From: Verrucomicrobiia bacterium
Lineage (GTDB): Bacteria > Verrucomicrobiota > Verrucomicrobiia > Limisphaerales > Fontisphaeraceae
Assembly (NCBI GenBank): GCA_026414565.1
Contig: JAOAIT010000048.1
Coordinates: 1 to 64,000 of the forward strand
Length of the DNA stretch: 64,000 nt
Direction of reading: 5' to 3'
Shown here: piece after piece, positions 39,889-59,690 of the stretch
How positions within the stretch are numbered: the first letter of the stretch is position 1
Layout: each line of letters starts with the position of its first letter
Notes under the pieces: model-generated
Database searches by the model: none
Told to the model about the DNA's origin: nothing
What the model saw: the letters and a program-made list of their open reading frames with translations, nothing else
Translations under genes and position numbers: made by a program

Positions 39889-40449
39889 ATGAGCGTGGTG
39901 ACCAAGACCGGCGACGGCGGGCAGACGGGGCTGATGTACAATCGGCGTGTGCCGAAAAACCATCCCCGGGTGGAGGCTTATGGGAGCGTGGATGAGTTGA
40001 ATGCGGCGCTGGGGCTGGCGCGGGCGAGCGCGACGGAGGAGTATGCGAGGGCGGTGCTGCTGGGGGTGCAGAAGGATTTGGTGACGCTGATGGGGGAGCT
40101 GGCCACGCTGCCGGAGGATTTGGAGCGTTACACGCGGGAGGGGTATCCGCGGGTGACGCCCGAATTGACGGCGCGGCTGGAGCAGTGGATCAAGGAGATC
40201 GAGGGGGAAAAAATTTCGTTCAAAGGGTGGGCGACGCCGGGGGCCACGGTGCATGCGGCGGCGCTGGATCTGGGGCGGACGGTGTGCCGCCGGGCGGAGC
40301 GGCGGGTGTGTGATTTGGTGGAGCAGGGGCAGCTTCAGAACACGGAAATCATCATTTTTCTCAACCGTCTGAGTGATTTGCTGTGGCTGCTGGCGCGGCG
40401 GGATGAGACGCGGAGCGGAGGGGGCCGTCCGCCGGTCGGGGGTGGATGA
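39889..40449 (+). CDS. Cob(I)alamin adenosyltransferase, PduO type
   Basis: The 186-residue protein matches PduO-type ATP:cob(I)alamin adenosyltransferases, which make adenosylcobalamin from ATP and cob(I)alamin. The ATP-binding N-terminus is VVTKTGDGGQTGL, followed by VEAYGSVDELNAALG and the C-terminal RRAERRVCDL and LNRLSDLLWLLAR. ATG 39889 fits the family start; an in-frame ATG at 39844 would add 15 residues. With the RACE-type activator at 48321 it points to cobalamin-dependent metabolism. Confidence 0.93.
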   Translation: MSVVTKTGDGGQTGLMYNRRVPKNHPRVEAYGSVDELNAALGLARASATEEYARAVLLGVQKDLVTLMGELATLPEDLERYTREGYPRVTPELTARLEQWIKEIEGEKISFKGWATPGATVHAAALDLGRTVCRRAERRVCDLVEQGQLQNTEIIIFLNRLSDLLWLLARRDETRSGGGRPPVGGG

Positions 40450-40455
40450 AAAGAA

Positions 40456-40485
40456 CAGCGGGCACTGTGTTTTCAGTGCCCGCTG
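40456..40485 (-). terminator. Strong hairpin terminator, minus strand
   Basis: A perfect 12-bp stem (40456-40467 with 40474-40485) has a 6-nt loop. On the minus strand it is followed by TTCTTTTC (complement of 40448-40455), while the plus-strand side has no T run. No minus-strand protein gene ends here, so it most likely ends the structured RNA just upstream of it on that strand. Confidence 0.75.
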
Positions 40486-40640
40486 CAACCCAAACAACCA
40501 AACGCCTCCTTTGGACTTGCGTCCAATGCAGGTGCTCCGGTTTGCCGGAGGGTGACTGTTGATGATATGGTGGGACTCACGCAACAGTCTCCACAGCTTT
40601 GGACGAAGCGAGGCGGGGGTTTGTTCAACAAAACTGCGAA
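40486..40640 (-). ncRNA. Candidate structured RNA of unknown class
   Basis: Between the adenosyltransferase and FNR-type reductase genes the sequence folds into a compact multi-branch structure. A closing helix joins 40504-40508 with 40610-40614. Inside are four hairpins: 40511-40516/40521-40526, 40535-40540/40545-40550, 40554-40561/40582-40589 (8 bp) and 40596-40599/40606-40609. Read on the minus strand one loop is GCAA, a GNRA tetraloop, and another is CAAA; on the plus strand they are TTGC and TTTG, so the minus strand is favoured. A strong terminator follows on the same strand. It does not match any RNA class I can recall, and the 5' end is unknown. Confidence 0.5.
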
Positions 40641-40770: not shown

Positions 40771-41490
40771 TCAGCCCCATTTTTCCACTTTCATCTGGCG
40801 CTTGTCGGCTTTGAGTTCATTGAGGACGAGCGATTTCAGAGCGTCCACCATTTCGTTGGAGCCGCAGGCATAGAAGATGGTATTGGGCAGGTCGGTGATT
40901 TGCTCCTGAATCCAGTCGAGGGTGATGCGCCCGCGGCGACCGCTCCAGGAGGGATCGCCCTCGGGCACGCGGGTGCAGGTGACCAGGAAACGGAAGTGAG
41001 GGTAAGCGGCGGCGAGGGCTTCAAAGTCCTTTTTGAAGATGATTTCGTCGGGCGTTTTGACGCTGTAGAGGACGGTGATGCGGGTGGTCAGGTGGCGGAG
41101 CCAGGCTTCGCGGACGAAACCGCGAAAGGGGGTGACGCCGGAGCCGCCGGCCATGCAGAGGAGGTGTTTATCGGGCTCGTACACCGGGAGGAAAACGCCG
41201 GTGGGCGGGAGGACCATGAGGCGGTTGCCGACCTCGGCCCAGTCCACGAGGCGGGTGCCCATTTTGCCCTCGCGCTTGACGGTGACCTCGTAAAAGCCGC
41301 GGTCGAGGGCGCAGGAGGAGAGGCTGTATGCCCGTTTGTAGTTGGGTGTATCGGGCCAGTGGAGGGTGATGAACTGGCCCGTTTTGAAGTCCACGTCGTA
41401 GCCCTCCGGCCATTTCAAGCGGACGGATTTGACTTCAGGGGTTTCCTGCGTCACGGCCTCGACCACCATTTCGACAGCTTCACGCGCCAT
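40771..41490 (-). CDS. FNR-family FAD/NAD(P)-binding oxidoreductase
   Basis: The 239-residue protein is a ferredoxin-NADP-reductase-type flavoprotein. It has the FAD motif RAYSLSS near residue 54, the NAD(P) motif MAGGSGVTPFRGF, and a C-terminal FYACGSNEMVDAL, the site for NAD(P). No iron-sulfur domain is fused, so it must pass electrons to or from a separate partner that is not in the window. It stands alone, with a structured-RNA candidate downstream on the same strand and glgB upstream. Confidence 0.85.
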   Translation of the reverse strand: MAREAVEMVVEAVTQETPEVKSVRLKWPEGYDVDFKTGQFITLHWPDTPNYKRAYSLSSCALDRGFYEVTVKREGKMGTRLVDWAEVGNRLMVLPPTGVFLPVYEPDKHLLCMAGGSGVTPFRGFVREAWLRHLTTRITVLYSVKTPDEIIFKKDFEALAAAYPHFRFLVTCTRVPEGDPSWSGRRGRITLDWIQEQITDLPNTIFYACGSNEMVDALKSLVLNELKADKRQMKVEKWG

Positions 41491-58074: not shown

Positions 58075-59502
58075 TCAGGAGGCGGAAAGGGTGCGCTTCC
58101 AGCGCGCGAGTTGTTTTTGCACTTCGCGGCGGCCAGGGGCGCCGGCGAGGTTGCGGCGCTCCATGGCCTGGCGCAGATTGAACACGCGGGGGGTGTCGGC
58201 GCCGAAGCGGCGGTCCACCCGTTGAAACTCCTCGTGCGTCCATTGGTCGAGCGGCTTGCCCATTTTTTCGGCCAGGGCCACCACGCTGCCGACCAGGTGA
58301 TGGGCCTCGCGGAAAGGGACGCCGCGCTGGACGAGATAATCGGCCAGATCGGTGGCCAGAAGCTGCGGGTCGGCGGCGGCGCCGGCGCAGCGTTCGCGGC
58401 AGACGGTCACCTGCCCCAGCATGTCGGCCATGATGTTGACGGTGCGGAGGACGGTGTCGGCGGTGTCAAAGAGCCGCTCCTTGTCCTCCTGCAGATCGCG
58501 GTTGTAGGTCATGGGGAGGCCTTTGAGGAGGGCGAGGAGGGCCACGAGATTGCCCATCACGCGCCCGGCCTTGCCGCGGGCCAGTTCGGCCACGTCCGGA
58601 TTTTTCTTTTGGGGCATGAGGGAGGAGCCGGTGGTGTAGGCGTCGCCGATTTGAATGAAGTTGAACTCGGCGCCGCTCCACAAGACGAGGTCTTCGGCCA
58701 GGCGCGAGAGGTGGACGGCGAGGAGGGCGGCGGCGGCGTTGTACTCGACGACGAAATCCCGATCACTGACGGCGTCCATGGAGTTTTGGGAGAGGCGCGG
58801 GCGGCCGCGGGCATCCACAAAGCCCAGCTCGCGGGCCACGGCTTCGCGGTCCAGGGGCAGGGTGGAGCCGGCGAGGGCGCCGCTGCCCAGGGGGCAGACG
58901 TTGGCGCGAAGGCGGCAATCGGCCAGGCGGCCGCGGTCGCGTTCGAGCATTTCGACGTAGGCGAGGAGATGATGCGCGAGGAAGACGGGCTGGGCGCGCT
59001 GCAGGTGGGTGTAACCGGGGATGACGACGTCCGCGTGGGCGGCGCCGAGGTCCACCAAGGCGCGCTGGAGGCGGCGGAGGGCGGCATCCAGTTCCTGGAG
59101 GTGATCGCGGAGCCAGAGGCGCATGTCGAGGGCGACCTGGTCATTGCGGGAGCGGGCGGTATGCAGTTTGGCGCCGGCAGGGGTGCGGGTGGTGAGCGCC
59201 GCCTCGATGTTCATGTGGACGTCCTCCAGCTCGGGACGCCATTGGAATTTGCCCTGCTCGATTTCCCGTTCGATGTCCGCCAGGCCGCGCTCGATTTCGC
59301 GGAGCTCCTGGCGGCTCAACAGTCCGACTCGATGCAACATGCGGGCGTGGGCCCGGCTGCCGGCGATGTCCTGCCGCCACAAGCGCCAGTCGAAGCTGAT
59401 GGACTCGGTAAATTGGGCCACCGCGGCGGCCGGGCCGCTGGCGAAGCGGCCGCTGCGGGAGACCGGCGCGGTTTTGGTCGAAGATGATCCCTTGCGTTGC
59501 AT
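58075..59502 (-). CDS. argH: Argininosuccinate lyase
   Basis: ArgH cleaves argininosuccinate to arginine and fumarate. The 475-residue protein has the fumarase-superfamily signature GSSLMPQKKNPD, plus HTARSRNDQVALDMRLW and TYLHLQRAQP-type GYTHLQRAQP. ATG 59502 is chosen because the frame upstream is a low-complexity extension not seen in the family. It starts the minus-strand pair with the squalene/phytoene synthase gene, 22 bp apart. No other arg gene is here. Confidence 0.96.
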   Translation of the reverse strand: MQRKGSSSTKTAPVSRSGRFASGPAAAVAQFTESISFDWRLWRQDIAGSRAHARMLHRVGLLSRQELREIERGLADIEREIEQGKFQWRPELEDVHMNIEAALTTRTPAGAKLHTARSRNDQVALDMRLWLRDHLQELDAALRRLQRALVDLGAAHADVVIPGYTHLQRAQPVFLAHHLLAYVEMLERDRGRLADCRLRANVCPLGSGALAGSTLPLDREAVARELGFVDARGRPRLSQNSMDAVSDRDFVVEYNAAAALLAVHLSRLAEDLVLWSGAEFNFIQIGDAYTTGSSLMPQKKNPDVAELARGKAGRVMGNLVALLALLKGLPMTYNRDLQEDKERLFDTADTVLRTVNIMADMLGQVTVCRERCAGAAADPQLLATDLADYLVQRGVPFREAHHLVGSVVALAEKMGKPLDQWTHEEFQRVDRRFGADTPRVFNLRQAMERRNLAGAPGRREVQKQLARWKRTLSAS

Positions 59503-59690
59503 GTGCCGGGCAAGTGTGCCGGGTTTGGCGGGCAAAGTCACGCCGGATTTGGGGGGCGCGGGGGGACAGGGCGGGGAGGAGGGAGTGCGGGTGAGGGGGA
59601 GGAGCCACGAGGGCAGAAAAGGAAAAACAGTTGCCAAATCGGTTTGACTTGGCCTGCGGCTGCTCCAATAATCTCCGGCGAAAGCAAGTT

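Follow-up and report, generated by a model that had tools for sequence, protein, structure and literature searches.

A predicted small RNA with an ECF-type promoter and a near-invariant G/U-rich segment in an order of Verrucomicrobiota

The window analysed here, a 64,000-nt stretch of DNA from a Verrucomicrobiia bacterium, contains a convergent intergenic gap. It is bounded by the end of a plus-strand cobalamin adenosyltransferase gene (PF01923) at 40449 and the end of a minus-strand FAD/NAD oxidoreductase gene (PF00970/PF00175) at 40771. As the original prediction had stated, no protein gene begins or ends inside it. We found that the gap holds a small-RNA gene on the minus strand (40449-40628), running from a promoter at ~40628 to the end of a T-tract at 40449. 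From the positions of the promoter and the terminator, the predicted small RNA is ~147 nt long (40449-40595, minus strand); its start would lie near 40595, ~7 nt past the CGTC of the promoter, and its 3' end is predicted near 40449, at the T-tract. The prediction of a stand-alone, non-coding small-RNA gene on the minus strand is well supported.

The 3' end of the gene is formed by an intrinsic terminator (40449-40486, minus strand), which combines a GC-rich hairpin of 13 pairs with TTCTTTT downstream of it. A terminator with a T run on this strand had been proposed with a 12-bp stem, and the hairpin proved to be one pair longer. Its stem shows two-sided changes among relatives.

At the other end, the window contains TTGAAC-N17-CGTC, with the -35 box TTGAAC at 40623-40628 and the -10 box CGTC at 40602-40605 on the minus strand. 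In relatives, TTGAAC-N16/17-CGTC was found 105-139 nt upstream of the conserved motif described below. After near-identical copies of the RNA had been removed (n = 98), the exact pattern was present in 36 of the 98 non-redundant copies, where 0.02 were expected from shuffles, and a loose pattern in 62 of them, where 0.39 were expected. The boxes are separated by 16 or 17 nt in 52 of 53 cases, and the commonest bases after CGTC are TGA. At the predicted transcript start, both the pattern and the spacing are those of an ECF promoter at the level of sequence. Known ECF -35 boxes include GGAACTT for RpoE and ATTGAAACCTTT for SigW (PMC8103513), and the form of the promoter points strongly to the ECF sigma class; an ECF promoter in turn suggests a stress regulon. 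The window genome has other copies of the promoter immediately 5' of start codons, and the encoded proteins are, to judge from the N-terminal sequences, exported or located in the membrane. They comprise an OmpH/Skp-family chaperone, a CotH protein, an ankyrin-repeat protein, a membrane protein and a secreted protein that has no Pfam match, a set that suggests a sigma factor of the envelope-stress type.

Several further observations concern the promoter. The OmpH/Skp copy of this ECF-type promoter is at L143 (G000 C37, about 58976-59652). It is placed at the end of another gene, perhaps bamA, whose product ends in ...FQFGVGYTREF, and stands only ~12 nt before the OmpH/Skp start codon, so that the mRNA may be nearly leaderless; the arrangement also occurs in G001. 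The Skp promoter was considered as a conserved member of the regulon and was set aside, being found in the window's genus only. We found no clear autoregulatory promoter before the ECF genes of the window genome. At L251 (G000 C1, about 36700), an ECF sigma gene overlaps a membrane anti-sigma-like gene and has CTGAAT-N17-CGTCCAAT, reported also as CTGAAT-N17-CGTC, immediately 5' of its start codon; this element may be a weak, autoregulated variant of the promoter found before the RNA, a likeness that is suggestive only. In genus g116 of family f7 (L098-L111) the RNA is retained with a different promoter, CTCTGGC-N16/17-GTCAT or similar, and recognition by the sigma factor may have shifted there.

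When the DNA was compared with that of relatives, a genome of the same genus matched at 88% over 213 nt, and seven genomes at a greater distance gave short matches of about 28-60 nt. Common to these matches is a motif in which AAAGGAGG is followed, after a few bases, by GTTTGGTTGTTTGGGTT and then immediately by the GC-rich terminator. Allowing up to one mismatch, we found the 18-mer motif in 93 of the 320 genomes from the window's order, in most of them once, with a few of the 93 not representing the RNA; the reversed 18-mer, used as a control, is almost missing from the same genomes. The order is given here as Limisphaerales/Pedosphaerales of Verrucomicrobiota; NCBI lists both names. The original prediction had named a covariance search and a search for compensatory base changes as checks. 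A covariance search, run on the 320 genomes with a model built from the 3' half of the RNA, found the RNA in 182 at E ≤ 1e-4, nearly always as a single copy, although the weakest of these matches may be terminator-only; counting the model's matches at E ≤ 1e-8 in the same set gave 125 genomes in 26 families. Outside the order we found no convincing copy in 388 genomes of the phylum, nearly all of them non-order, and the matches inspected were terminators or chance. Exact 18-mer matches in Haladaptatus, Bacteroidota, Chloroflexi and others have no terminator and were taken as chance. Two records from the survey are unusual. Genome G185 carries two near-identical copies on different contigs (L077, L078), which reflects either duplication or a mixed assembly, and contig CAMAVD010000026.1 (L046/L083) carries the RNA under the label Akkermansia muciniphila. 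Apparently the same contig (33,300 bases) falls in the window's order, and the Akkermansia name of the record looks wrong.

The genes beside the RNA change from family to family. In many families (~49 loci in an ORF clustering) the divergent neighbour encodes beta-lactamase, beta-CASP and RMMBL domains, and such a metallo-beta-lactamase/beta-CASP/RMMBL RNase-type gene lies upstream on the opposite strand within L010-L062 and L211-L247; other genes take this place in f2, in f7 and in the window's genus. Because the neighbours change and there is one copy per genome, we regard the RNA as an independent gene rather than a leader. In the window it does lie downstream of the oxidoreductase gene on the same strand (end 40771), but a leader, attenuator or 3' UTR acting in cis on an adjoining gene is very improbable given that the RNA has its own promoter and terminator, that its neighbours differ between families and that the next downstream gene in the window is on the opposite strand.

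Nor does the RNA look like a short protein-coding message, a reading to which we give almost no credence. A TTG does occur a few bases after the Shine-Dalgarno-like AAAGGAGG, but there is no ATG, the reading frames run into the terminator and the G/U-rich segment shows no silent changes over many genomes. In some families (L224, L240) a reading frame would be disrupted by indels in this segment, which argues that the RNA is not coding. With its own terminator, its independence from the adjoining genes and its non-coding nature, the RNA has the properties of a trans-encoded small RNA.

We next describe the fold. The minus strand folds more stably than its shuffles (z -5.5), and the region 40485-40630, which lacks the terminator, gives z -3.6. 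Three hairpins precede the conserved motif. H1 (GACUGUUG...CAACAGUC; 40554-40589) belongs to the predicted RNA fold and is kept in the same-genus copy (L017). H2 (CUCCGG-CAAA-CCGGAG; 40535-40550) is read from the sequence and, in alternative predicted folds, competes with pairing to the G/U-rich segment. H3 (UUGGAC-GCAA-GUCCAA; 40511-40526) is conserved in position before AAAGGAGG and is present in most copies, where its arms are unrelated between copies yet match within each. The mean score for arm pairing in H3 is 16.6, compared with 10.8 (sd 0.48) after the 5' arms were swapped between copies, and GC, CG, TA, AT and GU pairs occur at the same positions across copies. H3 thus shows strong compensatory change, while the hairpins upstream are otherwise variable. 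RNAalifold did not recover H3 from the full-length f7 alignment because the arm lengths differ too much for sequence alignment.

The multi-branch architecture proved incorrect. The original prediction had described a five-part junction in which a closing stem holds four hairpins, and this junction is absent from the best fold of the full stretch. The closing stem is also not conserved: in 39 copies its two strands pair with a mean energy of -13.7 kcal/mol against -13.2 kcal/mol for shuffled sequences, and a median of 40% of shuffles are as good. Its 5' strand (~40610-40628) is made up of the -35 box and spacer; since the predicted start is near 40595, this strand would be promoter DNA upstream of the RNA. 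The minus-strand GNRA loop that had been noticed does exist, as the GCAA of TTGGAC-GCAA-GTCCAA, but it is not general in relatives.

Judged by conservation among the copies, the defining part of the RNA is instead a near-invariant 17-base G/U-rich segment beside the terminator, GUUUGGUUGUUUGGGUU (40487-40503, minus strand), which has one exact copy in the window genome and which we propose as a seed. Internal base pairing is predicted to occupy most of the segment in the window copy; across all copies its openness is 0.46, compared with 0.38 when the upstream sequence is shuffled, and it varies between copies. Between H3 and this segment, the alignment of copies places the Shine-Dalgarno-like element AAAGGAGG (40505-40512, minus strand), which complements the 3' end of 16S rRNA almost perfectly. 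The retention of AAAGGAGG or AAAGGGGG at this fixed place in most copies would suit an RNA that docks on 30S subunits through the element and tunes initiation generally with its G/U-rich segment. We consider such an action on the ribosome unlikely, as several divergent copies (e.g., L211-L220, L244) have lost the element and kept the segment; AAAGGAGG may serve as a spacer or a pairing partner instead.

In line with the claim that the stretch matches no recognised RNA class, no Rfam 15 family reaches threshold in the window outside the tRNAs, which were the only matches there and at 20 loci with relatives. The best sub-threshold match, to CsrB (25.5 of 71 bits), comes only from the terminator read on the opposite strand, and a CsrB-like sponge was rejected for this reason; the sole match to 6S RNA in the genome (RF00013, 65.8 bits) lies elsewhere, on contig C70. 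The RNA resembles 6S RNA in its length, its single copy and its wide occurrence within a taxon, but it does not have the long irregular hairpin with a central bubble. It also resembles GcvB, the enterobacterial trans-acting small RNA, in being a single gene with hairpins, a terminator and a conserved G/U-rich region. The two have no sequence relation, and the GcvB model of Rfam has no match at the window or at the relatives' loci. GcvB is Hfq-dependent, whereas Hfq (PF17209) was not detected in the window genome by a search that detects it in control genomes; in addition, the RNA described here has an ECF-type promoter, its segment lies beside the terminator and its targets are candidates only. 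A predicted ECF promoter before a stand-alone small RNA and a probable envelope regulon are shared with the Sigma-E-dependent small RNAs (MicA, RybB, MicL; FoxI, FoxJ). Among ECF-dependent small RNAs, FoxI and FoxJ function in Fusobacterium without Hfq or ProQ (PMC11005410). They carry a cytosine-stretch seed where the present RNA has a G/U-rich one, the sigma factor is only predicted here, and there is no sequence relation.

Taken together, the order-wide conservation, the compensatory change, the conserved promoter and the lack of an Rfam match bear out the original prediction that the minus strand encodes an undescribed RNA ending at a terminator of its own. On these sequence grounds we assign it to a new order-wide family of small regulatory RNAs that are intrinsically terminated and trans-encoded; the alignment and the covariance model suffice to found the family. 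Descriptions of trans-acting small RNAs in Verrucomicrobiota are scarce, and the open-access papers searched contained nothing relevant. Since the candidate seed is fixed and a sigma class is predicted, the regulation, targets and helper proteins of this order-wide RNA become testable in a lineage in which Hfq was not detected.

For its function, we consider it probable that the RNA belongs to an ECF regulon and acts in trans, its G/U-rich seed pairing with C/A-rich ribosome-binding sites. An ECF-family sigma factor would read TTGAAC-N17-CGTC and yield the ~147-nt RNA that ends at its own terminator, and the variable hairpins would display the almost unchanging G/U-rich segment. This segment would act as a seed, pairing with C/A-rich stretches near the ribosome-binding sites of several mRNAs. 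The targets would most likely be mRNAs of exported or membrane proteins, with translation lowered, or less likely raised, when the sigma factor is active. We infer the sigma class, the envelope-stress input, the mRNA pairing and the direction of the effect. A precedent for the pairing is GcvB, whose conserved G/U-rich region (R1) recognises CA-rich sites at ribosome-binding sites (PMC3879156).

We searched 70 genomes for the complement of the 17-nt segment with up to two mismatches, using the reversed motif as a control, and found that complementary sites are no commoner than reversed-motif sites. Within 20 nt before an ATG lie 15 of 45 examined complementary sites and 8 of 31 control sites, which is not clearly above control. 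Since start codons are often preceded by C/A-rich sequence in any case, these counts neither prove nor exclude pairing. The lack of enrichment would also fit a different role for the segment, in which it forms, perhaps with AAAGGAGG, a high-affinity site for titrating or guiding an RNA-binding protein or a nuclease. A segment that is nearly invariant while its flanks diverge, and a beta-CASP RNase gene as the divergent neighbour in many families, are consistent with such a site. Titrating RNAs such as CsrB usually contain many repeats of the protein site, however, whereas the motif is single copy per genome, and in the window's genus, f2 and f7 a gene other than the RNase adjoins the RNA, so that we regard protein binding as possible but doubtful. 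A further, rather unlikely reading is that this is a core regulatory RNA of the order which combines its near-perfect Shine-Dalgarno element and its fixed G/U-rich seed in an undescribed, ECF-driven and Hfq-free mode, for example by docking on the 30S subunit while probing C/A-rich initiation regions.

The target search also returned candidate targets, which we list as leads only. Receptor-like outer-membrane genes were noted in L308, L309 and L320. At L031 (G132 C100), three adjoining, related genes for exported proteins each have AACCCAA(A/G)CAACCAACC 10 nt before the ATG, and these sites are nearly complementary to the G/U-rich segment of the RNA.
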